Source: Planctomycetia bacterium
Lineage (GTDB): Bacteria > Planctomycetota > Planctomycetia > Pirellulales > Thermoguttaceae
Assembly: GCA_026401055.1 (NCBI GenBank)
Contig: JAPLNP010000094.1
Coordinates: 1 to 61,399 of the forward strand
DNA length: 61,399 nucleotides
Reading direction: 5' to 3'
Shown here: positions 1-48,105 of the stretch, piece after piece
Position numbering within the stretch: position 1 is the stretch's first letter
Layout of the letters: each line of letters starts with the position of its first letter
Position numbers and translations under genes: made by a program
The notes under the pieces: generated by a model
Seen by the model: the letters and a program-made list of their open reading frames with translations, nothing else
Databases searched by the model: none
Told to the model about the DNA's origin: nothing

Positions 1-785
1 CGCGACTTCTTCGTCACCAGGGAAATGACGGCCAAAGTCTTGGGCGCCTGCCCCGACGCGGAATGGCGGCTGCTGGTGGCTCTGGCACGATTCGGCGGCG
101 TGCGGACGCCGTCCGAGTCTCTGGCCTCCAGTGGGCCGATGTGGACGGGGCGGGGGAGAAAGTGACGATCCACAGCCCCAAGACGGAGCATCACCCCAAC
201 GGTGCGACGCGGACCATCCCCCTATTCCCAGAACTGCGACCGTACTTGGAGGCCGTCTTCGACGCGGCGCCCCCGGGAACGACCTACGCTATCACCCGCT
301 ACCGCGATGCCAACGCGAACCTGCGGACCCAATTCGAGCGGATCATCCGCCGGGCGGGATTGGACCCCTGGCCGAAACTGTGGCACAACCTGAGAGCATC
401 CCGGGAGACAGAGTTGACCCAGCAATTCGCCCTGCACGTGGTATGCGCGTGGATCGGCAATTCTCAGCCCGTGGCACAGAAACACTACCTCCAAGTCACC
501 GAGGGCGACTTCGCCCGAGCCGTCGAACCACGGCGGGACTATCCCTCTCCGCCCCTCCCGACGAGCGCCGACGAAAATGGGTGCAACCGTTGGGTGAGAG
601 TTGGTTCAGAAGATGGGTGCAAGGGGTGGGATACGCCGGATTCCGCCGATTCTCGCCACGATAACACAACGGGCCGCAAGCCCCAGGATGACAAGGACTT
701 GCGGCCGGTGTTGGCTGGTTGTGGCGAATCGTGGCCACAGGTGGTAGTACCCCCTAGGGGAGTCGAACCCCTGTCCTTGGACTGA
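1..785 (+). pseudogene. Tyrosine recombinase (phage-type integrase), partial and frameshifted
   Basis: The catalytic half of a tyrosine recombinase, cut by the window edge. Reading from base 1, the protein runs through [11 protein letters not shown] (catalytic Arg I). It then has to change frame near 118-125 to continue as LQWADVD; one missing C explains the shift. After the shift come the Lys loop (SPKTEHH), the H-x-x-R box (HNLR), WIGNS in place of the common WLGHS, and the nucleophile Tyr in KHYLQVT. This looks like a decayed integrase or a single-base sequencing error. The C-terminal tail is not domain-like: its last residues (VPPRGVEPLS) are simply the reverse reading of the 3' end of the tRNA-Glu gene on the other strand. 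That placement is typical of integrative elements using a tRNA 3' end as attachment site. No other element genes can be seen because the window starts here. Confidence 0.8.
672..706. repeat. Inverted repeat upstream of tRNA-Glu
   Basis: Arms GGCCGCAAG (672-680) and CTTGCGGCC (698-706) pair perfectly around a 17-base loop. The hairpin lies in the non-domain tail of the integrase frame and downstream of the tRNA in the tRNA's orientation. It could be a tRNA transcript terminator, although no T-run follows on the minus strand. Confidence 0.4.
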
Positions 786-820
786 GAATCCAATGTCCTG
801 GGCCACTAGACGAAGGGGGC
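748..820 (-). tRNA. tRNA-Glu (anticodon CTC)
   Basis: On the minus strand the cloverleaf is complete: acceptor 5' strand GCCCCCT, D-arm GTC...GAC, anticodon stem TTGGA/TCCAA with loop TTCTCAG (anticodon CTC, Glu), T-arm AGGGG-TTCGACT-CCCCT, and acceptor 3' strand AGGGGGT with discriminator A. Position 1-72 is a G-T wobble. CCA is not encoded. The arm sequences match the bacterial tRNA-Glu pattern closely. The 3' end lies inside the integrase reading frame on the opposite strand. Confidence 0.95.
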
Positions 821-21101: not shown

Positions 21102-22613
21102 TCATGCCTCCGCCTGGAGACGCGGTTTGGCGATTCGGACAAACGCAATCGCGACAAACAGCAGACTGGGCACAAGAGCGATGCCGCGAACCAAAAGCGA
21201 GACATCCGCCAGACCCAAGAGTGTCAGAATGGCCAGAATACCCCAGATCACCAGCGACTCCGCGGAAACCAGGGTCCCGCTGGGGACGAGTCTTCGGAAA
21301 TGATAGAGGGGCACCAACAGAAGCGTGTTCACCGCATACGCGATGGCAAACGAAGCAGCCAATCCCATGGCGCCCCAGGCCACGAGATGCCAAGCCAAGC
21401 CAATCGCGACCACCGCCCAGATCGAGTTGCTCAAGAAGCTCCACCACATCAGACTATTCGCCGCGAGCACGCGAGCCAATCCTTGCTTGAACATGAGAAT
21501 GCAGGTATAGAACATCATCAAAACGAAGGTCGTGCGGAACGCCGCGCCGCCGTAGGCTTTGCCGAACAGGAGTTCCGCGATCTCCGGAAAACAGAGCAGC
21601 GGAACGATCACCATCACGGCGATGCACCAGGACGACAGCATGTTGACACGGCCCAGCCGGTCACTCACCTGTCCTTCGGCGTTGCACAACATCGCCAACA
21701 AGGGAGCGCTTAGCATCTCGCCGGCGAAGAGGATGGTGGTCTGGAAGATCATGACGGCCGAGAAGACGCCCATCTGGGCGTAGCCCCCCTCCTGGTTGAC
21801 CAGGAACGCGTTGCAGATCCATTGTGCCGGCGCGACCATGACGCCGGCGGCGACCACCGGCAGGCTGAACTGCCAAAGGACGGGCCATTCCGCCGTGCAT
21901 TGCCGAAGCGTGAACGCCACGTGAAAGCGCGCGGCTTCCTTGCGCAAGGCGAGATGGTTCAGCAGCCAGTTGATGGCCATGTTGATGGCCAAGGCCCAAA
22001 CCGCGCCGGTCAAGCCGCCGAGATAGGCGCCGCCAACCAGCAGCGGGAACGACGAAAGTCCGACTCCGAGATTCACGCGGGCGATAGTTTTGAACGCTTC
22101 GAAGCCGGCCAGCGCGCCGGTCTGGGCGCCGTTGGCCGAGTTGATCAACAGGATCAAGGCGGCGATGCGCAACACGCCCGTCAGGTGCGGCGCGTTGAGC
22201 GTGTGCGCGGCCAACCAGGGCGCGAAAATGACGACGCCCGCCGCAACGAGACCCCCCGTGACCAGGGCGAACACGCCCGACATGGCCATGATCCGTCCGG
22301 CTCGTTCCGGATCGCTGTCGCGACATTCGGCGACGTGTTTCGAGGCCGTCAGACCGAGTCCGAAGCCGGCGAAGACGACGAACATATTGACGGTCGATCG
22401 GACGATGCCGTATTCACCGTAGACTTCGGGCCCGAGTATATGGGCAACGAACACGGCGGCGACAAACATCAGGCCGCGAGAGATCACCGCGCCGGCCATG
22501 GACCAGAAGATCCCCTTGGCCAGCCGGTAGCCAATCGGCGAGCGTTCGATGCGCTCGAACGTCGGGCGCAAGAACGGGGGACAGCAGGCGGAGGCGAGTG
22601 ACTTGATGTTCAT
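21102..22613 (-). CDS. Wzx-type oligosaccharide flippase (copy 1)
   Basis: About 503 residues and 12-14 hydrophobic helices, polysaccharide biosynthesis/MOP superfamily. It would flip the lipid-linked repeat unit across the inner membrane. The N-terminus (MNIKSLASACCPPFLRPTFE onward) is almost identical to that of copy 2 at 23414-24772 over roughly 50 residues, after which the two diverge steadily. The start is placed at ATG 22613 to match copy 2. This copy is longer at the C-terminus. A methyltransferase gene separates the two. Confidence 0.9.
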   Translation of the reverse strand: MNIKSLASACCPPFLRPTFERIERSPIGYRLAKGIFWSMAGAVISRGLMFVAAVFVAHILGPEVYGEYGIVRSTVNMFVVFAGFGLGLTASKHVAECRDSDPERAGRIMAMSGVFALVTGGLVAAGVVIFAPWLAAHTLNAPHLTGVLRIAALILLINSANGAQTGALAGFEAFKTIARVNLGVGLSSFPLLVGGAYLGGLTGAVWALAINMAINWLLNHLALRKEAARFHVAFTLRQCTAEWPVLWQFSLPVVAAGVMVAPAQWICNAFLVNQEGGYAQMGVFSAVMIFQTTILFAGEMLSAPLLAMLCNAEGQVSDRLGRVNMLSSWCIAVMVIVPLLCFPEIAELLFGKAYGGAAFRTTFVLMMFYTCILMFKQGLARVLAANSLMWWSFLSNSIWAVVAIGLAWHLVAWGAMGLAASFAIAYAVNTLLLVPLYHFRRLVPSGTLVSAESLVIWGILAILTLLGLADVSLLVRGIALVPSLLFVAIAFVRIAKPRLQAEA

Positions 22614-22704
22614 TCCGTCATGGTTCCGAAAAACGCGGTAGGGTCGATCTCGGCGCTGCGATCGGTCGCACTGCTCGCGCGATGCGTCAGGCGGATCCTC
22701 GGGG

Positions 22705-23370
22705 TTACGCGGCGGGCTGATTCCGTCGGCCGCGAATGTGAAACATGATTTGTCTGTGTCGACGAACCAGACGCTTGCCAAGAAACGGCCGAACGAAATT
22801 CTTCATATAGATGTTGATGACTCGGCGGCGCCCATACTCGGAATAGCCGCGAGCGGCGTAGACCTTGACCTCGCAGGGCTCGAAGGAGGCGAAATAGTCC
22901 TTGTCGTAGCTATTCACGTGCTCGTGGTGCAGCGGGTTTTCCTTGTAGGGAACAAAGATGTACAGATCCGAACACTTCGTCAGCAGCGTCTCCGCGGTCA
23001 AGACATCGTCGTCGAGATGCTCCAGAATGTTCGACGCGACGATGACATCGACCTCGGGAACGCGGTCGCGATCCCCGTGGATGAACGTCGCGAGTTCGCC
23101 GTAGTGCTGCCGGCACAGTTCGATCGCCGTCTTGGAATGATCCAAACCAAGGAACGTGGCCCTGGGGAATCGCCTCTTGTAGACCGGGATTGCGTCGCCC
23201 AGGCCGCAGCCGAAATCGAGAATAGAACCGGCGAAGTCTTCCGGCAGTCGCAGCAGATGTGCTTGCTCGGCGGCGAAAAGGCGAGTCTGGCGTCTTCCGT
23301 TGCTCGCCTCCCAGTCGCCTGAGGCGAATCTGCCATCCCAGTAGATTTCCGTATTGACATTCGGGCCCAT
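22705..23370 (-). CDS. Class I SAM-dependent methyltransferase
   Basis: A 221-residue methyltransferase. SAM motif I is ILDFGCGLGDA, the acidic end of beta-2 is FLGLDHS, and motif post-II is VDVIVASNILEHLDD. The length fits a small-molecule or sugar methyltransferase. Because it sits between two Wzx copies, it may methylate a sugar or the non-reducing end of the glycan. Its translation shows no membrane helix. The specific acceptor cannot be told. Confidence 0.88.
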   Translation of the reverse strand: MGPNVNTEIYWDGRFASGDWEASNGRRQTRLFAAEQAHLLRLPEDFAGSILDFGCGLGDAIPVYKRRFPRATFLGLDHSKTAIELCRQHYGELATFIHGDRDRVPEVDVIVASNILEHLDDDVLTAETLLTKCSDLYIFVPYKENPLHHEHVNSYDKDYFASFEPCEVKVYAARGYSEYGRRRVINIYMKNFVRPFLGKRLVRRHRQIMFHIRGRRNQPAA

Positions 23371-23413: not shown

Positions 23414-24772
23414 TCAACTGGGGCGGCCGTTTCGCAGGAGCCTCCATGCGTAGCAGCCAGTCCATCCGGTGTGGCAGAGGTAGGAGACGCAATACGCCAT
23501 GGCGAGTCCCAGCGCTCCGCACCGCAGGTCCACGGTGAAGATCCGAGCCGACGCGATCATGGCGACCGCCCAACAGGCGTTCAGCCAAAAGCCGGCCCAC
23601 ATTCGGCCTTGGCTCACGATCGCCTGGCCGACCACGTTGTTCACGGCGATCAGCACCGCGGTCAAGGACAGGCACGCCAGCACCCACGATCCCTGTTCGA
23701 AACCCTCGCCGTAGCTGCCCATGATCCACGGCGCCGTCAGGGAGATCAGGGCCGCCATGACCAGCGCCGCGCCGCCGTTGACCAAGACGTTGCTCTTGAG
23801 CACCTTGAGATAGGCGGCGCGGCGGTTCTGGCCCTGGAGACTGGAGAGCATCGGAAGGACAACTTGGCTCATCGTCGCGGGAACAAACAGGATCGCCAGT
23901 CGCCATTGATCGGCCGCGCTGAACACGCCCATCTGGCCGTAGCCGTCCGGTTGGTTGACCAGGAGCGCGTTGCACACCCAGAAGACCGGGCCGACCATGA
24001 TGCCGCACATCGCGGCCGGCAAGCTGAAGCGCCAGAGGATCGGCCATTCCCCCAGGCAGCCCCGGAAACCAAACGCGATGCGCCAGCGGGCCGCCTCCGC
24101 GCGCAAGGCCAGGTGGCTCAGCAGCCACAGGACGCCCGTGCTGAGCGCCAACCCCCAAATCGCGCCGTTGAGGCCGCCGAAGTGGGCGCTGGCCACCAGC
24201 AAAGGAAACGACGCCAAGCCACCCCAAAGATTGACCTTGGCAATCGTCCTGAATGCCTCGAAGCCGACGAGGGCGCCGTTCTGCGCGCCGTTGAGCGCGC
24301 TGAGGAACAGGATCACGGCCGCGATCCGCAAACCGCCGGCCAGATGCGGGGCGTTCATCGAGTGCTCGGCCAGCCAGGGGGCGAAAACGATCAGCGCCGC
24401 CGCGACCAGGCCGCCGGTCACCACGGCGAACAGACCGGAGATTCCCATGATCCGGCCCGCGCGCCGCGGATCGCTCGCCGCGAACTCCGCCACGTACTTC
24501 GAGGCGGTCATGCCGAAGCCGAAGCCGGCAAAGACGCCGAACATGGCAACCGTCGAGCGCACCATGCCCAATTCGCCGAAGGTTTCCTTGCCGAGCATCC
24601 GGGCGACCCAGATCGACGCGGCAAGCATCAGCCCGCGTGAAATCACCGCGCCGGCCGTCGACCAAAACACGCCCTTGGCCAGCCGGTAGCCGATCGGCGA
24701 GCGCTCGATGCGCTCGAACGTCGGGCGCAGGAACGGGGGGCAGCAGGCGGAGGCGAGTGCCTTGACGTTCAT
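23414..24772 (-). CDS. Wzx-type oligosaccharide flippase (copy 2)
   Basis: A 452-residue paralogue of the flippase at 21102-22613, with the same N-terminus (MNVKALASACCPPFLRPTFE) and parallel motifs throughout: FWS-x-AGAVISRGLM, ASK-Y/H-VAE, PWLAEHSMNAPHLAG and LLVNQPDGYGQMGVFSAAD. About a dozen transmembrane helices are expected. Its ATG overlaps the TGA of wecB by four bases (24769-24772), indicating translational coupling. Two flippases in one cluster may serve two substrates, or one may be redundant. Confidence 0.9.
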   Translation of the reverse strand: MNVKALASACCPPFLRPTFERIERSPIGYRLAKGVFWSTAGAVISRGLMLAASIWVARMLGKETFGELGMVRSTVAMFGVFAGFGFGMTASKYVAEFAASDPRRAGRIMGISGLFAVVTGGLVAAALIVFAPWLAEHSMNAPHLAGGLRIAAVILFLSALNGAQNGALVGFEAFRTIAKVNLWGGLASFPLLVASAHFGGLNGAIWGLALSTGVLWLLSHLALRAEAARWRIAFGFRGCLGEWPILWRFSLPAAMCGIMVGPVFWVCNALLVNQPDGYGQMGVFSAADQWRLAILFVPATMSQVVLPMLSSLQGQNRRAAYLKVLKSNVLVNGGAALVMAALISLTAPWIMGSYGEGFEQGSWVLACLSLTAVLIAVNNVVGQAIVSQGRMWAGFWLNACWAVAMIASARIFTVDLRCGALGLAMAYCVSYLCHTGWTGCYAWRLLRNGRPS

Positions 24773-25971
24773 TCACTCCTCCGTCGCGTGGCGAAAAACT
24801 GTTCGCACGCGGCCACGATCCGCCCGCACGCCTTGCCGTCCCCGTAGGGATTCACGGCGTTGGCCATGGCGGCGTAGGCCGTCTTGTCGGTCAGGAGCGT
24901 CGACACGCCATCCAGAATGGCTTGTGTGTCCGTGCCCACCAGCTTGACCGTGCCCATCTCGACCGCCTCGGGACGCTCGGTGGTGTCGCGCATGACCAGG
25001 ACCGGCTTGCCGAGACTGGGCGCCTCCTCCTGGACCCCGCCCGAATCGGTCAGCACCAACGTCGCGCGATCCATCATGGCCACGAAGGGCAGATAGCCGA
25101 GCGGGTCGATCAAATGAATCGTGCCTTGGCCCACCCGACCATCTTGGACGACCGCTCCGAGCAAGCGGTTGACCGGCTCGCGAACGTTGGGATTCAGGTG
25201 GACGGGGTAAACGAAATGGGTGTCGGGAAACCGCCTGGCCAAGCCGGAAATCGCCCGACAGATGTTCTCAAAACCGCCGCCGAAACTCTCCCGGCGATGG
25301 CCCGTGATCAGCACCACCGGCGGGCCTGCGTTCTCCTCCGGGCCGCGACGGGGCTGGAGGAACTCGGGCAACCCGGCCACCCGCGGCGGATCCTCGCGCA
25401 CCCGTCGGACCGCGTACAGCAAGGCGTCGATGACCGTGTTGCCGGTCACGAAGACCATCTCCGCGGGCACGGATTCGTTGAGAAGATTGCGTCGAGCGGT
25501 CTCCGTCGGCGCGAAATGCAGGTCGGTCACGCGGGACGTCAGCACGCGGTTGATCTCTTCCGGGAACGGAGACCACTTGTTGAAGGTCCGCAGACCCGCC
25601 TCGACGTGGCCGATGGGGATGTTCCGATAGAAGGCGCACAAGGCGGCGCAGAACACCGTCGTCGTGTCGCCTTGCACGATCACGAGATCGGGACGGCTCG
25701 CGTCCAAGTAGGCGTCCACCGCGGCGATCGTCCGGGAGGTAAGATCGGCGAGCGTTTGGTTCGGCCGCATCAAATCGAGATCCGCGTCCGGCGTGACGCC
25801 GAAGACGGCCAGCACCTGATCGAGCATCTGGCGATGCTGGCCCGTGACGCACACTCGCGGCTCGAACTCGCCGTGCTCGCGCAAGGCCAGCACGAGCGGG
25901 CAGAGCTTGATCGCCTCGGGGCGCGTTCCGAAGATGAGGGAAATGCGTCTTCGGGGTTTTTTCACGGTCAC
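24769..25971 (-). CDS. wecB: UDP-N-acetylglucosamine 2-epimerase (non-hydrolysing)
   Basis: About 400 residues. It converts UDP-GlcNAc to UDP-ManNAc, a precursor for surface glycans. Family landmarks: SLIFGTRPEAIKL at the start, VTGQHR, QGDTTTV, GHVEAGLRT, PEEINR, TGHRRESFG, TDSGGVQEEAP and TERPEAVEMGTVKLVG. The start codon is uncertain: GTG at 25971 or 25965 fits the family better than a TTG at 26022. The 3' end overlaps the flippase start. A palindromic repeat lies just upstream (26027-26095). Confidence 0.94.
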   Translation of the reverse strand: MTVKKPRRRISLIFGTRPEAIKLCPLVLALREHGEFEPRVCVTGQHRQMLDQVLAVFGVTPDADLDLMRPNQTLADLTSRTIAAVDAYLDASRPDLVIVQGDTTTVFCAALCAFYRNIPIGHVEAGLRTFNKWSPFPEEINRVLTSRVTDLHFAPTETARRNLLNESVPAEMVFVTGNTVIDALLYAVRRVREDPPRVAGLPEFLQPRRGPEENAGPPVVLITGHRRESFGGGFENICRAISGLARRFPDTHFVYPVHLNPNVREPVNRLLGAVVQDGRVGQGTIHLIDPLGYLPFVAMMDRATLVLTDSGGVQEEAPSLGKPVLVMRDTTERPEAVEMGTVKLVGTDTQAILDGVSTLLTDKTAYAAMANAVNPYGDGKACGRIVAACEQFFATRRRSE

Positions 25972-26026
25972 ATCCACCTGGAGGCCGAAGGGTTCGCGAA
26001 GGAATAACCGGGTGACGTCCAATATT

Positions 26027-26139: not shown

Positions 26140-26856
26140 TCACTCCGCCTGAGCCGCGGCGGCCGGAGCCTCCTCGTCGGAATCGGTGGATGGCGCGGGC
26201 GTCCGGTCATTCTGGAGCTGGCTGGTCCAGGCATACAACCGGGCGCCAAAATCCTTCAGCCGTTGCTCGTCCTGTTCCGGATTGGTGATCTTCGTCTGGA
26301 GAAGCACCTTGACGATCGCCGGCCAGGTCGCGTTTTGGCGGAGTACCCGACGCGCGTCGTTCAGCCCCTGGTCGTCGGTAAACACATGGTCGCCCAACTG
26401 GAACCAGAACATGACGAGGACTCGCTCTCCTGCCTGATCGTAGGTTATCACCCGCGTAGGCGCTGGCGGCGCGCCGGGGGCCTCCAGAATCACCTCTTTC
26501 TCATTGGTCTGTATCCAGCCAGAGGAAGGGTAGCACACAGTTGGCGGATGCGGCACGCCGCGAAAGTAGTCGCCAAAGACCGCCACGTGCATGGTCAACA
26601 CTTTGCCGACCGAGTTCGTGTACATTCGGCTGACGACCTCGTCGGCGCTGATCACCCGTAACAGACGTTCGTCGACTTTCGTCTCCTTGCCATCCCAGGA
26701 CCAGGAGCCGAATTGTCCGGGCATGGTTTGGAGGCTGGTCTCGGGAAGAGTGATGTCCTTCGTGGCTCCGCCGCGATACCTCAAGTACTCGGTTCCGAGG
26801 CAGACCATGGCCAGCAGGGCCCCCGCGCCAATAATTCGCGGTAGTGGTGCGTTCAT
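26140..26856 (-). CDS. EpsI-domain, exosortase-associated protein
   Basis: A 238-residue protein with an N-terminal signal anchor (IIGAGALLAMVCLGTEYL) and an EpsI-type domain. The family's hallmark H-P-P-T-V-C-Y-P-S-S-G-W is present (HPPTVCYPSSGW), plus VSRMYTNSVGKVLTMHVAVF. EpsI domains occur either fused to or next to exosortases, and are thought to take part in EPS/PEP-CTERM export outside the inner membrane. Here it is a stand-alone gene separated from the exosortase by the WecA-like and Wzz-kinase genes. The tail is Ala/Glu-rich and disordered. Confidence 0.88.
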   Translation of the reverse strand: MNAPLPRIIGAGALLAMVCLGTEYLRYRGGATKDITLPETSLQTMPGQFGSWSWDGKETKVDERLLRVISADEVVSRMYTNSVGKVLTMHVAVFGDYFRGVPHPPTVCYPSSGWIQTNEKEVILEAPGAPPAPTRVITYDQAGERVLVMFWFQLGDHVFTDDQGLNDARRVLRQNATWPAIVKVLLQTKITNPEQDEQRLKDFGARLYAWTSQLQNDRTPAPSTDSDEEAPAAAAQAE

Positions 26857-26901: not shown

Positions 26902-28320
26902 CTATTTAGGAGTCGTGCCGGAGCAGGTCGATTTCGGCTGGCCGGCCATATCGGGCCGGTCCAGGACCGCCTCGTCGCCGGCCACGCCGCGGACCGGCTG
27001 CCCCGCCAGCGATTGAATCCGCGCTTCGAACGGCTCGATCAGTTCCATGAGTTGTTGGATGTCGAGGCAGGCCGACTGTCCGTTGCGCTGCCCGCTGATC
27101 CGCACGCGTCCGATGGGACAATCGTTGATCACCAACGGGATTTCGACGCGCCAGCAGCGATCGTTCTTGGAGCGCCGGGGACGTTCCCAGGAGGCGTGGT
27201 AGGCCTCGTGCATGGTCGGCACGTGGACGTCCAAGCGGATTTCCGTCAGCCGCAGCTTGTCGGCCGACTCGACGAACGCGGACCAGAGCAGTTCCCATTG
27301 GTGCATGCCCTGCAACTGGATGCTGGTCTGCCAGGCGGTAGGCTGGCGCGAGATGATGGGGGCAACGAGCATGCGTCCGACCCTGCGCAGCCCCGCTCCA
27401 ACCAACAGCAGTTCCACCCGCCCAAACGCGCCGGTCGCGACGAAAATGGCGACGACGGCGAAGCAGGTCAGGAGCGTAATTCGGTCGTCCCGGCGGATCA
27501 GTCCGGCCAAGGTCGCCACGGAAATGACCGCGCAGCAGGCGGCCACCCAGCCGAGCACCTTTCGGTTGCTGCCCAATAGGTTCAAAAGGCGGTGGTGCAG
27601 GTGTCCGCGGTCGGTGGCGTAGATGCTCTGTCCGGTCAGTTTCCGGCGGAGGATCGCGGCCACGGAGTCGAAGATGGGGATGGTCCAGACGGCCAGCGGC
27701 GCGGCCAGCAGGACGGTGCCGGCTCCCTTGAGCGATCCGCGGATAGCCAGCGCGCCGACGACCAACCCGATCAACATGCTCCCGGTATCGCCGAGAAAGA
27801 TGCTCGCCGGGGGGAAGTTGTACCGCATGAAACCCAACAAGCTGCCGGCGAACACCATGGCGACGATGGCCACCCCGTAGTTGCCCGTCAGGACCGACAT
27901 GGCGGCGATCGTGCAACTGAGGATGATGCCGAGCATGGCTGCCAGGCCGTCGATGCCGTCCAGAAGATTGAGGGAGTTGATGGCGCCCAAGAACCAGAAC
28001 AACGTGATGGGGTAGGCAAGCCAGCCGAACCCCACCAGCCACCCAAAGCACTCGACTCGCTCGATCAACAGTCCGCCCGCCAGCAGGATCGATGCGGCCA
28101 CGATCTGGCCGAGCAGCTTCTGTTTGCCCGACAGGTTCCGAACGTCGTCCACCAGTCCCAAGATGACGATCACAAGGCCGGCCAGCAACAGCCACGGCAA
28201 GTCGGGGTACCCCAGCCGCAGCTTCTCCTGGACGCTCTTCTCCTTCGGCGGAGCCGTAACCGTGTTACTCCACGCCGAATCGTCGCCCTGCGCCCGGGCC
28301 ATATACGTGTTGCCGCCCAA
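26902..28320 (-). CDS. WecA/MraY-like glycosyltransferase family 4, C-terminal part (frameshifted gene)
   Basis: About 472 residues, read from TTG 28320 (an ATG lies at 28302). It contains the later helices and active-site loops of the polyprenyl-phosphate HexNAc-1-P transferase family: GLVDDV (the Asp-Asp pair), NSLNLLDGIDGLA, FMRYNFPPASIFLGDTGSM and the HLHHRLL His motif. A 150-residue cytosolic tail follows. The first two helices and the RKLHGRATPLGGG motif are in the separate frame at 28361-28741. A shift of one base is needed to join them, so the enzyme that should start the lipid-linked oligosaccharide is either inactive, made by frameshifting, or misread in the assembly. Confidence 0.85.
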   Translation of the reverse strand: MGGNTYMARAQGDDSAWSNTVTAPPKEKSVQEKLRLGYPDLPWLLLAGLVIVILGLVDDVRNLSGKQKLLGQIVAASILLAGGLLIERVECFGWLVGFGWLAYPITLFWFLGAINSLNLLDGIDGLAAMLGIILSCTIAAMSVLTGNYGVAIVAMVFAGSLLGFMRYNFPPASIFLGDTGSMLIGLVVGALAIRGSLKGAGTVLLAAPLAVWTIPIFDSVAAILRRKLTGQSIYATDRGHLHHRLLNLLGSNRKVLGWVAACCAVISVATLAGLIRRDDRITLLTCFAVVAIFVATGAFGRVELLLVGAGLRRVGRMLVAPIISRQPTAWQTSIQLQGMHQWELLWSAFVESADKLRLTEIRLDVHVPTMHEAYHASWERPRRSKNDRCWRVEIPLVINDCPIGRVRISGQRNGQSACLDIQQLMELIEPFEARIQSLAGQPVRGVAGDEAVLDRPDMAGQPKSTCSGTTPK

Positions 28321-28360
28321 CGGGAACCCGCTCGTGGAACCCGTCCACGTCCAACCGCCG

Positions 28361-28741
28361 CTACGCGGAAGTCGACTCGGCGGACGTGGAAGCGATGTCG
28401 CCGGCGTGGCCGTCGGAAGTCGACTCGGCGGACGCGGAACTCGTGGTGCCTCCGTTGCCTTCAGAAGTCGACTCGGCGGGTGCGGAAATCGTGGTGTCTG
28501 CGTTGCCTTCGGGTTCCGGGGTACTCAGGTCGGAGGGGGCTACCCAGAGCGTGCCGAGGATAATGGCCGAAGTCAGGTAGACGGCGACTCCGCCCCCCAG
28601 CGGCGTCGCTCGGCCATGAAGCTTGCGATAGCCGTCGGGGTTGTCGGTCAATCCGATCCGGGGCGCCACCTCGCGGATCAAGGCCGTCAGCGCGAGACTG
28701 ACGAGGCAAGCGATCAGGAAGATCGTCGGTTCAGAGCCCAT
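28361..28741 (-). CDS. WecA/MraY-like glycosyltransferase family 4, N-terminal part (frameshifted gene)
   Basis: About 126 residues starting at ATG 28741. It has helix 1 (PTIFLIACLVSLALTALI), the conserved D-N-P-D-G-x-R-K-L-H-G-R-x-T-P-L-G-G-G motif and helix 2. It then runs into a Ser/Glu/Thr-rich repeat tract and a TAG at 28361-28363. The remaining family motifs resume 40 bases on, in the +1 frame. Both frames are open through the repeat tract, so the exact break point cannot be fixed. This is the same gene as 26902-28320. Confidence 0.82.
   Translation of the reverse strand: MGSEPTIFLIACLVSLALTALIREVAPRIGLTDNPDGYRKLHGRATPLGGGVAVYLTSAIILGTLWVAPSDLSTPEPEGNADTTISAPAESTSEGNGGTTSSASAESTSDGHAGDIASTSAESTSA
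28362..28525 (-). repeat. 48-base tandem repeats inside the WecA-like gene
   Basis: Three imperfect full units of exactly 48 bases (starting at 28525, 28477 and 28429) plus a partial fourth (28381). The last three starts share GCCGAGTCGACTTC. They encode 16-residue units of the type AESTS-[E/D]-G-x-x-G. The tract sits between helix 2 and helix 3 of the protein, and the frameshift lies at its 3' end. Confidence 0.85.
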
Positions 28742-28873: not shown

Positions 28874-31105
28874 CTACCGTTCGATTGCGCCGTAGCCGTC
28901 CTCGCTCGCGCTCGTGACCACGGCTTCCACGTTATGCACGCCGAACGTCTCCAGGATCTCGCAGGCGGCCATCACCTTCGGGGCGCGGCTGAAGTCGCGG
29001 AAGATGGAAAGCACGACGGCATCCACGTGCTGGCTCAAGTATCGCGAGTCGGCCACCGGCAGGATGGGACTGCCGTCAACCACGACGAACTCGTACTCGG
29101 CGCGAAGCTCCTCGAAAAGACGCTCGTCGACGCCGCTGGACAGCGCCTGCAACGCGTGAACGTCGCAGCGACCGGCGGTCACCACCGACAGGTTCTTCAT
29201 GCCGGTCGGCTGGACCAGATCCAGAATCTCCTTCTCCCCGCAGAGCGCTTCGCTCACGCCGGGATGCAACGGCAACTGGAACGCCTTGTCGATCGCCGGG
29301 CGCCGGAGGTCGAAATCGACCAGCACGGTGCGGCGTCCGGCCCGGGCAAGGCTCATCGCCACTTGCGTGGCCAACGTCGTCTTTCCTTCGCCGCTGACGG
29401 CGCTGGTGATGAGGACCACGTGGGTCTGGTCGATGGCGGCGTCGCGCAACAATTTCGCCGCGATGCTGTCGATCGACTCGGTCAGCCGCACGTTCCATTG
29501 CTGATTCTTCGCGCCCGGCGAATTGAGCCGCCGTATGGCGCGACCGGGGACGATGGGGATCGAACCGATCACCGGCACGCCGAGGCCCTTGGCGACTTCC
29601 TCGGACGAATTGATTCGCCGTTTGCGGACGTCCCACCAGATGATTCCCGAGATCGGCAGGATCAGGCCCACCAAGCAGGCGACGGCGCTGACGGCCGCGT
29701 TCACCCGGGGATTGTCGTAGGCCGGCGGCACGTCGGCCGGCTGTCGGAGCCGAACGCGTGCCTGCGCGCGAAGCTCGACCCCCAGGGCCTCCTTCTCCTG
29801 CGACAGTTTGGCGAGCGACTCTTCGAGACTCGCCAGTTCCTGCTGCGCCATTTGGACCTCGACGAACGACTTCCCGATCAACTCGACCTCTTCTTGTTGT
29901 TTTTTCACTTCTTCGACGAGCTTGCTCTCATCGGCTTCTTGCCCCGCGACGCGCACCGTCAGGTCGTCGACCTTCTCCTGAGCCTCCGCCCGCTTGGCCC
30001 CCTTCACGAGCTCGGCCAGTTCGGCTCTTCGGGCGTCGAATTGGGCTTGGGACGCGGCCAACTTCTGCCTGAACTGGTTTGCGTGGCTACTATTGGTCGC
30101 GCCGGGAATCGAAACCCGATCCTGCTCCCCCGCAACCTGCTCGAGTTGGGCAATCATCTGCTGGCACGCCCGGCAGATCTCGTCCCTCTGGATCAACTCC
30201 TGGAGGTCGAGTTCGCTGACGGCGCCCTGGTCGATTCGTTTCAGCATCTCTTGGGCCGCGACGAGATCTCCCCGGATCTTCGACAATTCGAATTGCAGTC
30301 TTGAAAGCTGCGCTCGATACTCGCCATAACGCTGCATGGCGACCTGCTGCTGCACGCTGAGGGTCTCCTTGTCCGTCGTTTTGAGCTGCTGGGCCAACGC
30401 GGTAAGGGCAGCGCGCTTCTTGCGAGTTTCTTCTTCCTTGTCCCGGTAGACTTGGCTGACCTCGTTGAACCGGCGGTTCCGCTCGGCCTTCTCGCTGTCG
30501 ACGATCTCGTTCAGATAGGCTTCCACGACGGCGCGGACCACATCGGTCACCTCCTTCGGATCACGGTCGGTCAGGCTGACTTGCATGATCTCCGCGTCGC
30601 CGGGGAACTTGACCACCAAGTGATCCTGGAGCCAAACGATCTCGTTGGGCTTCTCGCGCTGGATCATCGCCAGGTTGCTGATTTCCGGCTTCCGCAGCGC
30701 GGTCGTCAGAACGAAGGGACTCGTGAGCCACCCGCGCTGGGTATTCTTGTAGACATCGAACTCTTGCTGAACGGCGAAAGTGCTCTTCGGGGTGACCACC
30801 GTGTCTTCCCGCATTCTGACCTGGATCAACGACTCGGCGGTGTAATTCCTGGGCAACAAGAACCACGCGCTCACGCCGACCACCGCGCCGCAGATCACGC
30901 CCAACAGCGTCCCCAACAGCCAGTGCCTTCGGAGGGCGTGCAAGTAAACCGAAGCGTCCGCGTGGTGCGGTCCGGCGCCGCGCGGAGTCACGGCCACCGT
31001 CGTCCACTCGCCGTCCCTGGTCGTCACGGGCGCGGTACGGGGCACCACCAGCGACTGTCCGTTGGTGGGTTGCTCCAGCGATGATGTGTCGTCTTTGGTC
31101 GACAT
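28874..31105 (-). CDS. Wzz-type copolymerase fused to bacterial tyrosine kinase
   Basis: A 743-residue exopolysaccharide chain-length regulator. A Wzz domain starts with helix 1 (about 63-82), followed by a long periplasmic coiled coil (about 200-450) and helix 2 (about 472-491). The cytoplasmic BY-kinase has Walker A SGEGKTT (571-577), Walker A' VLVDFDLRRP (594-603) and Walker B FVVVDGSP (673-680). The C-terminus (SEDGYGAIER) has one Tyr rather than the usual Tyr cluster. It would set polymer length and control export by ATP-driven assembly. It sits directly after the exosortase gene in the transcript. Confidence 0.93.
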   Translation of the reverse strand: MSTKDDTSSLEQPTNGQSLVVPRTAPVTTRDGEWTTVAVTPRGAGPHHADASVYLHALRRHWLLGTLLGVICGAVVGVSAWFLLPRNYTAESLIQVRMREDTVVTPKSTFAVQQEFDVYKNTQRGWLTSPFVLTTALRKPEISNLAMIQREKPNEIVWLQDHLVVKFPGDAEIMQVSLTDRDPKEVTDVVRAVVEAYLNEIVDSEKAERNRRFNEVSQVYRDKEEETRKKRAALTALAQQLKTTDKETLSVQQQVAMQRYGEYRAQLSRLQFELSKIRGDLVAAQEMLKRIDQGAVSELDLQELIQRDEICRACQQMIAQLEQVAGEQDRVSIPGATNSSHANQFRQKLAASQAQFDARRAELAELVKGAKRAEAQEKVDDLTVRVAGQEADESKLVEEVKKQQEEVELIGKSFVEVQMAQQELASLEESLAKLSQEKEALGVELRAQARVRLRQPADVPPAYDNPRVNAAVSAVACLVGLILPISGIIWWDVRKRRINSSEEVAKGLGVPVIGSIPIVPGRAIRRLNSPGAKNQQWNVRLTESIDSIAAKLLRDAAIDQTHVVLITSAVSGEGKTTLATQVAMSLARAGRRTVLVDFDLRRPAIDKAFQLPLHPGVSEALCGEKEILDLVQPTGMKNLSVVTAGRCDVHALQALSSGVDERLFEELRAEYEFVVVDGSPILPVADSRYLSQHVDAVVLSIFRDFSRAPKVMAACEILETFGVHNVEAVVTSASEDGYGAIER

Positions 31106-31255: not shown

Positions 31256-32251
31256 TTACGCCGTGTCTTCTTTTCCGCGAACGGTTTCCTTGTGAACCGC
31301 GGCCGCGTCCTCTCTTCCATGGACAAAACGCGACTCCCGATCGCGCGGGATCTCCTCGCCAAGGGTGCCGAACGCCAGCGGGGTTTCCCGCTCCGGAGCG
31401 GCAAACAACTTCGCGAACAACGCCGTCTCCAGCCAGAGAATCCCAATGGCCATCGGCATCATGAACCAGCCGGCGAGGTCGTGAAAAACCTTGTCGCCCA
31501 ACTCCTGACTCACCGTTTCATACAGAATCGCCGTGACGGTAATCCGCGTCACGTTGGCGACAATCGCGATCGGAATCGCGCTTAAGGCGATGAGAATCCG
31601 GGTAAACAGATCGCGCCGGATGATCAGCGCCGCGCCGATGCACGCGGCGAAGAACAACATCAACATCCGGATCCCACTGCAGGCCTCGACCACGCCCAAT
31701 CGCGCGTTGGACAGAACGATCACGTTTCCCTCCGCAACGGCCCGTACCCCCAGCGTCTGAAGCGTGTACACGCTCACGTGGGTGCCGATTTGCTGAAGCT
31801 GACGACTGAGCAAATCGGCATAACGCCCCGGCAAGGGCACCATGAACGTCAGAAACGCAATCCCCGGCCACGACCATTGTAGCGCCTTCCACCCTCCCAC
31901 CAGGATCACCAGTCCCAGCAGCAACGGGATCAGCGACAGGGCTTCGGCCACCTGAAGGAACTCGTAGGCCGAGTACCCTCGCATTGCCGCGGCAATCGCC
32001 AAAAACGGAAGTCCCCAAAGGTTCCCCTTGAACTCCGCGTCCTTGATCATCTCGCGCCGATCCCACAACAGCAGCACGGCGAACGGAATCACGAGAAAAC
32101 CGTAAACGTAGTCCTGGACTTCATACCAGAACCGGACGAGCCAAGCGAACGTCGACCCGTACGCCAAAACCACCACCACCAGCAGCGCGATGCTGCCCGC
32201 GATGAGAACGGTCCGCGATTTCGAGTCCACGGGTCTTGTCAAGGTCTGCAT
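31256..32251 (-). CDS. Exosortase
   Basis: A 331-residue membrane protein with about eight helices and the exosortase catalytic set: Cys in EACSGIRM (Cys191), Arg in NVTRITVTAIL (Arg236) and His in KVFHDLAGWFMM (His257). Exosortases cleave and sort proteins ending in PEP-CTERM tripartite signals, as a transpeptidase-like step coupled to EPS export. Likely substrates are at 38010, 38952 and 47128. ATG 32251 is preferred (AGGTG upstream) over a GTG at 32260. No EpsI domain is fused at the C-terminus; that is the separate gene at 26140. The C-terminal 45 residues are polar and acidic. It is the first gene of the EPS transcript. Confidence 0.95.
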   Translation of the reverse strand: MQTLTRPVDSKSRTVLIAGSIALLVVVVLAYGSTFAWLVRFWYEVQDYVYGFLVIPFAVLLLWDRREMIKDAEFKGNLWGLPFLAIAAAMRGYSAYEFLQVAEALSLIPLLLGLVILVGGWKALQWSWPGIAFLTFMVPLPGRYADLLSRQLQQIGTHVSVYTLQTLGVRAVAEGNVIVLSNARLGVVEACSGIRMLMLFFAACIGAALIIRRDLFTRILIALSAIPIAIVANVTRITVTAILYETVSQELGDKVFHDLAGWFMMPMAIGILWLETALFAKLFAAPERETPLAFGTLGEEIPRDRESRFVHGREDAAAVHKETVRGKEDTA

Positions 32252-32923
32252 TATCAACACCTAAAGGGGCCGAGAATCATCGTGAGGACAGTCCCCAAAG
32301 CCGGTTGACGCCATGCGCCGACGCTTCGCGCGACGTGTCTCCACGCACCATCCTTCCACTTTGGGGGGACGCCCGAATCCAACCGTGGCCCCACGTCGAT
32401 CACCCACCCGGTTGGCCAAGCTTGCGGGACAAACGCCGCCCGCCACCATGCCTGAGCGGAGCGTCCAAAAGACTCGTGAGGGGATGAGATCACCGAACCG
32501 TCGCCGAGCGCCCACCTTCATCCCCACAGCATGATTCAATACTGCCAAAATGTCAAGGTGCGGCGTCGACACGCTCTCTGGCAAAGCAATCCGAATGCCA
32601 ACGACGCGCGCCGCCGCGGACACCGCGATGTAACTCGTGAGAAAGGCACGGTTTGCGCCGATTTCCCGTGGGCAGACCTTCCAGGCCGCCGTGTTGGTTT
32701 TCGGCATCAACCGCCACGCCCGACGTGGTGTCGATCGCACACGGCATTGGGCGCAGTTGCCGGCCTGTTGCGCCAGCCGTGCCGCAAAGCGGCATGCCCG
32801 AAAGAGAACTCTGAGAAAGCCGCCGCTAGCCACAACATATTGCGCAAGCACAAGACCGCCAGCGCACAACATAGGGCGTGCTTGCATGACTTCTTCAGCA
32901 CTCTCAGGATGGCCGCGCCACCC

Positions 32924-35609: not shown

Positions 35610-35630
35610 CCGCCGGCCGGGGACAAGCGA

Positions 35631-35757
35631 GCCGAGCCGCGACCGTAACAAAACCGAGCCGCGACCGTAACAAAACCGAGCCGCGACCGTAAGGGAGCGG
35701 TGTCAGAACATCGCCAATCGTGGCGCGCCATGCCGCTCCCTCACGGTCGCGGCTCGG
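35631..35757. repeat. Inverted-repeat element, left copy, with 22-base tandem units
   Basis: It begins with two and a half units of CCGAGCCGCGACCGTAACAA. The third runs into GGGAGCGGT, followed by a spacer containing GGCGCGCCA, and closes with the reverse complement arm ending CGGTCGCGGCTCGG (35733-35757). The arm-spacer-arm part (35677-35757) recurs at 37735-37818 on the other side of the GDSL-DUF1080 gene, in the same orientation. Confidence 0.85.
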
Positions 35758-37734: not shown

Positions 37735-37839
37735 ACCGAGCCGCGACCGTGAGGGAGCGGTTATGGAGACTCCCGAATCTCGGCGCGCCACAGCGCTCCC
37801 TCACGGTCGCGGCTCGGTACGGTCGCGGCTCGGTTTTGT
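37735..37839. repeat. Inverted-repeat element, right copy
   Basis: ACCGAGCCGCGACCGTGAGG...spacer with GGCGCGCCA...GCGCTCCCTCACGGTCGCGG, followed by an extra half arm (37819-37839). Same orientation and layout as the left copy (35677-35757). Confidence 0.85.
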
Positions 37840-38009: not shown

Positions 38010-38849
38010 CTACTTACGCAGCCGATAGCCGGCCAGGCACAGGGCGCCCAGGATCAGCATCGCAATGGTGCTCGGCTCGGGAACCGCGGTAGCAGCCTCT
38101 CCGCCGCCGCCGCCAGTGCCGTGCGGGCCGTACCAACCCTGCCCGAACAACGACAGGTCATCGGCGGTGCAGGTGCCGGTGCCGTTGAAGTCGCCATTCA
38201 ACCATGTAATCGGCAGCGGTACGGTGCCATACCAGCCCTTGGCGAAGTTACTCAGGTCATCCGCGTTGATATGGCCATCGCCGTTGGTGTCACCATTCTC
38301 CAGACTCGGAGACGCGACCGTAAGTGTGCCTGAAGGATACGCGACCACGTTGCTGCCCTCGACGGCCCACACGGTCAGGATGACATCCACAGAGGCGTTC
38401 CGCGGAAGGACGATCCGCAGCATGTCGATAGGTGTGCTGCCATCCGGCAGGCTGGTGGACGTGTGGAGATAGTCGTCCCAAGTCGGCCCGGTTGCGCTGT
38501 AGTTGGTCAACGTACCGCCCGCCTCGCTAGTGACTGCGGTCGGCCGCGTGCCCTGCGCGGGATCCCAGGTGCCGCCGGCAACGTCCGGGAGGCGGAGGTC
38601 GCCGAACACGACGCAACTGTCGGTGGCCGGGTTGGCACTCCCGGCCCCGGTCCACTCGTCGCCGTTCTGGTTGACGGTACCGGTGACGTTGAACGTGCCC
38701 AGCGTGTTGATTCCGGCGCCCTTGGCTCGGACCGTGTAGCTGTACAGGCCCGCGGCGGGATCCGGATTCTGGAGAACATCGAACGTCACCGCATAGGTAA
38801 CGCTGGTCATGGCCAGAATGGCCATTAACGTAAAAGCGATTTTCCTCAT
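38010..38849 (-). CDS. PEP-CTERM protein with dockerin-like EF-hand repeats
   Basis: About 279 residues. It has a signal peptide (KIAFTLMAILAMTSVTYA), a beta-rich middle, two dockerin-type calcium loops (GDTNGDGHINADDLSNFAKG and GDFNGTGTCTADDLSLFGQG), a Gly linker, and a C-terminal PEP-CTERM signal: VPEPSTIAMLILGALCLAGY followed by RLRK. The signal predicts export and processing by the exosortase at 31256. ATG 38849 is used because AAGGAG sits ten bases before it. The gene has its own terminator. The role of the middle domain is unknown. Confidence 0.88.
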   Translation of the reverse strand: MRKIAFTLMAILAMTSVTYAVTFDVLQNPDPAAGLYSYTVRAKGAGINTLGTFNVTGTVNQNGDEWTGAGSANPATDSCVVFGDLRLPDVAGGTWDPAQGTRPTAVTSEAGGTLTNYSATGPTWDDYLHTSTSLPDGSTPIDMLRIVLPRNASVDVILTVWAVEGSNVVAYPSGTLTVASPSLENGDTNGDGHINADDLSNFAKGWYGTVPLPITWLNGDFNGTGTCTADDLSLFGQGWYGPHGTGGGGGEAATAVPEPSTIAMLILGALCLAGYRLRK

Positions 38850-38909
38850 AGCTGCCATTCTCCTTACGTATCAAGGGAAATTAGGAAAGTACATTCGGAA
38901 GAGAGGCCA

Positions 38910-38951: not shown

Positions 38952-39584
38952 CTACTTGCGGAAACGGGCAACGACGAGGCACAGGGCCCCGGCGATCAGC
39001 AACGCGATGGTTCCCGGCTCGGGAACGCCAAGGGTCTGACGGATAACGCCACCCCCCTCCGTCGTGCCGCTCAGCACAACCATGGTTCCGGCGGGGATGA
39101 CGACTTGCATGAACGGGGAGTTCGCACCGAGTTGGGCGCTAAACGTGAACGCCGAACCTGCATCGGATCTGAACGTCCCCAATCCACACCAGTAACTGCT
39201 GGCGGACGGAATAATCGGCGTTGCATCCTCATACCCGTCGTTCGTCTCGTTCCCCGTGACGCCCAAAGTGAGGCTGGGCTTGGCCATCATCATGTGCGTA
39301 TCCATCGCCTTATGGAGTGTGGGCATGCCGGGGAGCCACACCGTCGGGATCGGGGCAAAACCGTATGGCGGATCGAAAAGCTCATCAAACTTGTTCGATT
39401 GAACCACCGTACCGTCGATGTTGATGTTGACGAACGTGTCCGCTCCGCTAGCCCGGACCAAGTAGCTCTCGTAGCCGGCCAAAGGAATTGTCGGCGCATC
39501 AACGGTAATCACCAACCCCGCGAACGCCGTGCTCGCCATTGCCAGAACGGCCAGCACCACCAAAGCCATCTTCATGTTTCTCAT
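38952..39584 (-). CDS. PEP-CTERM protein
   Basis: A 210-residue secreted protein. It has an N-terminal signal peptide (MALVVLAVLAMASTAFAG), a central beta-rich region of no known family, and a C-terminal sorting signal VPEPGTIALLIAGALCLVVA followed by RFRK. The start ATG has AAGGAG seven bases upstream. It stands just upstream of the other PEP-CTERM gene on the same strand; each has its own hairpin at the 3' end. Presumed substrate of the exosortase at 31256. Confidence 0.85.
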   Translation of the reverse strand: MRNMKMALVVLAVLAMASTAFAGLVITVDAPTIPLAGYESYLVRASGADTFVNINIDGTVVQSNKFDELFDPPYGFAPIPTVWLPGMPTLHKAMDTHMMMAKPSLTLGVTGNETNDGYEDATPIIPSASSYWCGLGTFRSDAGSAFTFSAQLGANSPFMQVVIPAGTMVVLSGTTEGGGVIRQTLGVPEPGTIALLIAGALCLVVARFRK

Positions 39585-47127: not shown

Positions 47128-48105
47128 CTATGCCTTTCGGCCGCGCTCGATCAGATCGCAGATCGCCTCACGGTTCGCTCGGTTCCAGCGGGGAGAACCG
47201 GTTTCGCTCGAGTCGCCCCGACGACGACGCGACCAAGCCAAGCCGGCGGACCCAATCCCCAGCACCGACCAGATCAGAAGGCTCGCCGGCTCGGGGGTGA
47301 TGTTCTCAACGGGCTCCCCATGGAGCATCTCCATATCCTGCTTTAACGTCCCGCTATTGTCCTGAACGCTGATGACGCCGTAACTTTGGACCACAGCCAG
47401 CTTCTCGAAGTTCGTGGCGTGGGGCGCATCGTGCCACCAGGACCAAGCCGCGTAGAAGGAATTCAGGTCGATTCCCGCAGCAACCAGGTCAGCGTTATTC
47501 GCGTTACCCACCAATTCGGCGCCAGCACCGCCGGGTTCCACGTTGAGGGTGTCCACCCCTGGGTCGTACCTGCCAGCAGTCCCTCCCACATTGGTATATG
47601 GGACCATGCCCATCCAGATCGCTTCTTGGTAGTGTCCAATCAACGTCTTGGTTGCCTCCAAATTGTCCCTGGGATGGATAATGTCATCTCGAACGTTTAC
47701 CAGGAACTGGTTGTACACCCATGCGGAGTAACCCGTCATCGCCCGATTACTGGCGACCGAACTTTGGGGAAGACTTTCAATGTCGTACCAATTGGGCGGG
47801 TTGAAGTATTCGTATCGCTCCAGACAGAAGGTGTAGAACGCACCGTTCTCTATGTTCTTGGTGTTATCCGAATGAGAGCTTGCGACCCAGGCGTTCTTAC
47901 CCTGAGGAGTGCGATCGGAGTCATCATAAAGAACGGCCCAAAATGCCCCTCCATAGTTGGGAAAGTGAATGTCAACGCTACCCGGAGGGGGGGTAGTGAC
48001 ATAGCCCAGCCAAATGTCGTCATGGGCCTGCACGTCAATCGAACCGAAGGCGAATGTCGCCAATCCCAAAACTACCAAGACTGCCCAAACTGCTGATGTT
48101 CTCAT
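47128..48105 (-). CDS. PEP-CTERM protein with extended C-terminal tail
   Basis: A 325-residue secreted protein. The signal peptide is VLVVLGLATFAFG. The body is rich in Trp/Tyr/Asn, with no recognised fold. A PEP-CTERM signal (ITPEPASLLIWSVLGIGSAG, then SRRRRGD) follows. Unlike classical PEP-CTERM proteins, the basic cluster is not the end: about 30 residues follow, ending N-R-A-N-R-E-A-I-C-D-L-I-E-R-G. AGGGGA precedes the ATG. An ECF-like sigma factor gene lies immediately upstream. Confidence 0.82.
   Translation of the reverse strand: MRTSAVWAVLVVLGLATFAFGSIDVQAHDDIWLGYVTTPPPGSVDIHFPNYGGAFWAVLYDDSDRTPQGKNAWVASSHSDNTKNIENGAFYTFCLERYEYFNPPNWYDIESLPQSSVASNRAMTGYSAWVYNQFLVNVRDDIIHPRDNLEATKTLIGHYQEAIWMGMVPYTNVGGTAGRYDPGVDTLNVEPGGAGAELVGNANNADLVAAGIDLNSFYAAWSWWHDAPHATNFEKLAVVQSYGVISVQDNSGTLKQDMEMLHGEPVENITPEPASLLIWSVLGIGSAGLAWSRRRRGDSSETGSPRWNRANREAICDLIERGRKA

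Follow-up and report, generated by a model that had tools for sequence, protein, structure and literature searches.

A WecA-like transferase gene divided between two frames at an Ig-like gene fragment in a planctomycete exosortase locus

The closest described relatives of the protein considered here are WecA (TIGR02380) and MraY (TIGR00445), with which it shares the PF00953 match, the motifs and the predicted fold. However, it differs from both in a disordered segment of ~100 residues between TM2 and TM3, a predicted GAF-like tail and a coding sequence split between two frames. Its nearest counterparts are the intact orthologues of other Pirellulales, which have the same gene order and a long linker rich in S, T, A, D and E, but which are encoded in a single frame and contain no recognised Ig-like fragment. 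Slipped-strand phase-variable surface genes also carry tandem repeats in a glycan-synthesis gene; here, however, the unit length is divisible by three, and a gain or loss of copies cannot switch the frame. In programmed +1 frameshifts of the prfB type, as in this gene, the frame is displaced by +1 at a stop codon that is itself in frame; this gene nevertheless differs in having no slippery re-pairing codon, no Shine-Dalgarno-like stimulator and no conservation in relatives. The Big_7 domain (PF17957) of planctomycete repeat proteins is matched by one piece of the gene, with 72% protein identity to the C-terminal half of the repeat unit; but this piece has only ~35 residues, is too short for an Ig fold and lies inside the loop of a membrane enzyme.

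The window, that is, the whole stretch of 61,399 nucleotides that was analysed, comes from a metagenome-derived draft assembly (673 contigs, 87% complete), which is the sole representative of its genus in our comparison. At 28741..26902 on the minus strand, it holds one transferase gene of the WecA/MraY type whose coding sequence is divided over two frames. The parts of the gene are as follows:

28361..28741, minus strand: ORF A, with an ATG start, 126 aa and the stop codon TAG at 28363-28361; N-terminal part of a WecA-like transferase
28368..28510, minus strand: tandem array with a 48-base unit, 3.0 copies, 82% matches and a TRF score of 179
28361..28367, minus strand: junction with the +1 frame change, where array homology passes into Ig homology within a few bases
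28259..28362, minus strand: apparently captured Ig-like (Big_7) gene fragment, SGGWTWTGSTSGFPLGGNTYMARAQGDDSAWSNT(VTA), in frame B, directly after the array
26902..28320, minus strand: ORF B, in the +1 frame relative to ORF A, covering TM3 to the C terminus of the transferase
27736..28191, minus strand: PF00953 Glycos_transf_4 domain, with GLVDD, NSLNLLDGIDGL and GDTGS all intact
27001..27333, minus strand: C-terminal domain whose predicted fold is GAF-like, kept in relatives, without a Pfam match

The first-pass annotation had assigned the motifs in the two frames to one HexNAc-1-P transferase and had placed the break at the 3' end of the 48-base array, between TM2 and TM3. Both statements are borne out, coordinates included. 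ORF A contains TM1, the cytoplasmic GLTDNPDGYRKLHGRATPLGGG loop (HGRATPLGGG), TM2, the start of the linker and the AESTS repeats; it aligns with six intact relatives and has predicted helices at 4-29 and 50-67. ORF B carries GLVDD, NSLNLLDGIDGL, FLGDTGS and HLHHR. Its reading frame is open from ~28527 down to 26902, and the first start-type codons ahead of TM3 are TTG 28320 and ATG 28302. Codon-position GC is that of frame A up to the end of the array and that of frame B right afterwards. Apart from TAG 28363-28361 and the +1 change that follows, no second stop or frame shift was found in the gene, and a Pfam scan of ~30 other genes of the window found no split like that of the transferase. 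It had also been pointed out that both frames are open through the repeats. They are; however, this carries little weight, because the unit length is divisible by 3 and because a given frame in 165 random bases of the same composition is free of stops 21% of the time.

For alignment and folding only, we used a bridged protein in which the frames were joined at TAGC. The match to PF00953 (E 1.6e-39 for ORF B; 135.9 and 139.8 bits in two scans, against a gathering cut-off of 27) places the gene product among the polytopic phosphoglycosyl transferases, and in the bridged alignment the motifs K-x-H..GG, DD, N..N..D-G-x-D-G, GD-x-GS and H-x-HHR are invariant with those of the relatives, yet divided between the frames. 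The best PDB matches of the predicted structure are MraY and DPAGT1. The protein scores below the curated cut-offs of both the WecA equivalog TIGR02380 (118 of 326 bits) and MraY TIGR00445 (61 of 192 bits), and therefore we name it WecA-like only. Within the WecA/MraY superfamily, the gene appears to encode, or until recently to have encoded, a polytopic polyprenyl-phosphate HexNAc-1-phosphate transferase. Most of the top structural matches of the C-terminal tail are GAF domains (VIA Z up to 8.7, with an rmsd of 3.3 over 100 residues), and Foldseek gave E-values of 0.06 or worse; the predicted model is no more than suggestive of a GAF-like domain. It would be unusual for an initiating transferase to carry a domain of the sensory type.

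The neighbours that are conserved in relatives are the following:

28874..31105, minus strand: Wzz-type chain-length determinant/BY-kinase, upstream
31256..32260, minus strand: exosortase (PF09721)
26140..26856, minus strand: EpsI/DUF3485, downstream
24769..26022, minus strand: UDP-GlcNAc 2-epimerase (WecB), downstream

As far as their contigs reach, the relatives have the gene order exosortase, Wzz/BY-kinase, transferase, EpsI, with WecB next in most. The transferase is presumed to be the initiating enzyme of this conserved exosortase/EPS locus. Close to the locus, three secreted proteins with PEP-CTERM-like tails are encoded on the minus strand (38010-38858, 38952-39584 and 47128-48105); they are candidate exosortase substrates and had no match in NCBIfam at 1e-5. 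Two flippase (Polysacc_synt) genes at 21102-22781 and 23414-24772, both on the minus strand, have almost identical N-terminal stretches (ASACCPPFLRPTFERIERSPIGYRLAKG) and look like a tandem duplication, with a methyltransferase gene between them. Intergenic 22-base repeats (CCGAGCCGCGACCGTAACAAAA) occur at 35623-35692, and a reverse-complement relative lies 2 kb off at 37803-37834; together they flank a GDSL/3-keto-disaccharide hydrolase gene. At the start of the window, a tRNA-Glu gene (747-820, minus strand) overlaps the end of an ORF at 63-785 on the plus strand, which resembles the C-terminus of a tyrosine recombinase and has no Pfam match. It is possible that 63-820 is the edge of an integrated element.

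We compared the tract in related genomes. In six members of the same family of Pirellulales, the orthologues (L041, L011, L012, L013, L042 and L066) are all intact, each in one uninterrupted frame, and their linkers are long and hypervariable. Core identity to the window gene is 77% for L041, 75% for L011, 74% for L012, 71% for L042 and 69% for both L013 and L066. The distance from GG in the first loop to G-x-x-DD after TM3 is 81-119 residues in these six, against 41-51 in the other homologues measured. S, T, A, P, D and E abound in the extra segment, whose sequence and length are different in each genome. In L066 (G092) the same TM2-TM3 loop holds an in-frame (PVET)n array of 12-base tandem repeats, which is an independent repeat expansion. 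In the predicted model of the bridged window protein, residues 71-166 lack secondary structure and stay under a pLDDT of 50. By analogy with the known topology of WecA and MraY, the extra segment would face the outer side of the membrane. The comparison shows that this clade habitually enlarges the TM2-TM3 loop by repeats that keep the frame, and that this extracytoplasmic loop has become a long, disordered and fast-changing linker.

In frame A, the array of the window gene encodes 16-aa units of AESTS-(E/D)G-(N/H)..., and in this frame alone its composition resembles the linkers of the relatives. Frame B was rejected as its true frame, with an R+K fraction of 0.20 and a D+E fraction of 0.02, unlike those linkers. 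The TRF score of 179 is far above chance, the best score among 10 codon-shuffled windows being 57. The longest exact repeat within the array is 21 bases, and the break holds no homopolymer of 6 bases or longer.

What follows directly on the 3' side of the array is a fragment of an Ig-like gene, unrelated to transferases, and not native linker. Its protein matches the repeat units of G017:C452 (L050), from another genus of the family, with an E-value of 2.8e-14, and its DNA is 82% identical to G017 over 95 nt (E 9.5e-21). The DNA alignment with L050 begins at 28362, within ~4 bases of the end of the array homology, so that the frame change sits on the seam between two unrelated sequences. The G017:C452 protein has Ig-like domains of the Big_7 type (PF17957, E 4.1e-11) along with SBBP propeller repeats. 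The fragment covers only the C-terminal half of a repeat unit, not a complete domain, and by itself had no match in Pfam. No such fragment was recognised in the linkers of the six relatives. A search of 396 genomes from this order gave a close DNA match in G017 alone, and no true match was found in the organism's own assembly (87% complete); weak matches there (L002-L005) were rejected as chance matches. Similarity between the fragment and the donor-type units is roughly what is seen among these units themselves, and therefore the capture is not ancient.

We favour, with about as much belief as doubt, the reading that capture of the Ig-like gene piece at the edge of the array, joined in +1, recently inactivated the presumed initiating transferase of the locus. 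A piece of ~100 bases from a Big_7 surface-protein gene would have entered the gene at the 3' end of the array, presumably by illegitimate recombination. With the array-side junction +1 out of register, translation from the normal start would halt at the TAG just past the array, and the product would be a 126-residue stub of two helices without the catalytic loops. The enzyme, and initiation by its route, would be expected to be lost, and silencing of the locus is plausible. Because the break lies exactly at the seam of unrelated sequences, it is most simply explained by one event.

The orthologues are intact and the lesion is specific to this lineage, as in a recent pseudogene, and the remainder of the gene is undecayed, which would make the lesion a recent one. 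The window core is nested in the clade of the relatives, with a terminal branch of 0.233 within a clade range of 0.211-0.395, and the pN of the gene (0.19-0.24) is as between intact pairs. Since the branch is not accelerated, pN is normal and there is no further lesion, the gene appears to have been under normal selection until very recently. An old pseudogene was rejected for the unaccelerated branch and the lack of extra lesions. That the break is present in the living organism is what we infer from the sequence. However, the Ig fragment shares its reading frame with the 3' part of the gene, which would be a 1-in-3 coincidence if the capture had never been selected, and this counts against the preferred reading, as does the failure to find the true donor. 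Of the four options raised in the first-pass annotation, a dead gene and an assembly error are still live, with a real and recent break favoured, whereas a repeat-driven switch and a programmed frameshift have failed. In itself, the break is probably a recent lesion of an ordinary kind, or else an error in the sequence.

Sequence error is the main rival, rather unlikely but deserving serious weight. By that account the living organism does carry the Ig fragment, with the frame kept at both of its ends, the +1 is an error of consensus or assembly, and the gene encodes an intact enzyme with a chimeric, extra-long linker. The shared frame of the fragment and the downstream half points this way, as do the draft, metagenome-derived state of the assembly and the transferase core, which is undecayed and under purifying selection; absence of decay is equally expected of an intact gene that carries a sequence error. 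A seamless join can also be imagined, given S-T-S-A at the end of the array and D-T-S-A ahead of GW in the donor-type units. A frameshift present in one genome only is often a sequencing error (PMC3711429; PMC11017572). However, there is no homopolymer at the site, an exact repeat of 21 bases is short for a modern assembler to confuse (on which ground collapse at the array was rejected), the ~30 other genes of the window show no such break, and a random error would seldom fall on the seam.

It is improbable that the gene was lost in two steps, first by an in-frame capture that was tolerated and later by a separate indel at the seam. The fragment is in frame downstream and the linker of the clade clearly tolerates changes of length, but two events are required, and the second must strike by chance a few bases of a 400-base linker.

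Split membrane proteins can reassemble, and the enzyme might still be made, either as the stub together with a chain running from TM3 to the end and started at TTG 28320 or ATG 28302, or through low-level +1 recoding at the TAG. We regard this as quite doubtful. Start-type codons do occur ~40-60 bases past the stop, and ORF B is open and undecayed; however, neither codon is preceded by a Shine-Dalgarno-like sequence, there is no slippery P-site codon or stimulatory structure (z = 0.21), and the arrangement is found in none of the relatives. Clustered frame transitions also argue against it, with 146 recoding clusters against 4010 pseudogene clusters (PMC3711429). An extension of this idea is very unlikely: that the loop is an evolvable, outward-facing slot for repeats and foreign pieces, with the enzyme made as two chains or by bridging of the stop and the variable segment displayed.

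A phase-variable on/off switch driven by the repeats is extremely improbable, even though this is a surface-glycan gene with tandem repeats and the corresponding loop of L066 holds an array as well. A unit of 48 bases amounts to 16 codons, and therefore the copy number cannot alter the frame and a switch by this array is excluded; slippage of the 12-base units of L066 would be equally frame-neutral, and the break has no short non-triplet repeat. A literature search turned up no relevant account of phase variation in a WecA whose outer loop varies. Nothing supports a programmed +1 frameshift, given the single frame of all six relatives, the context GCG UAG C, which allows no codon re-pairing in +1 and has no Shine-Dalgarno-like motif upstream, and the absence of an RNA structure signal at the break (the fold z-score given above).

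The genome holds two other PF00953 genes, at C286, taken to be MraY, and at C19. The latter (G000:C19:13512-14405, L092, minus strand) is a second WecA-like gene with an in-frame loss of ~66 codons, which removes the catalytic N..N..D box that is retained in the relatives examined. A GATCGCC stretch at the joint of this deletion could be microhomology. Because the window gene is split and L092 is without its catalytic segment, there is no intact WecA-like enzyme in the assembled genome (87% complete), which fits pathway loss and assembly faults alike.

Two features of this locus stand out, the hypervariable outer loop, which is specific to the clade, and the Ig fragment captured at the break. 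A real break would show that loss of the initiation step of a conserved exosortase/EPS locus can occur in nature; a sequence error would mean that the enzyme tolerates ~100 extra residues on its outer side. Either way, repeats together with a frameshift should not be called phase variation before the unit length has been checked. The locus is a clear example of a membrane enzyme whose outer loop has turned, in a single clade, into a hypervariable, low-complexity linker, which grows by repeats and, once, by capture from an unrelated surface-protein gene.
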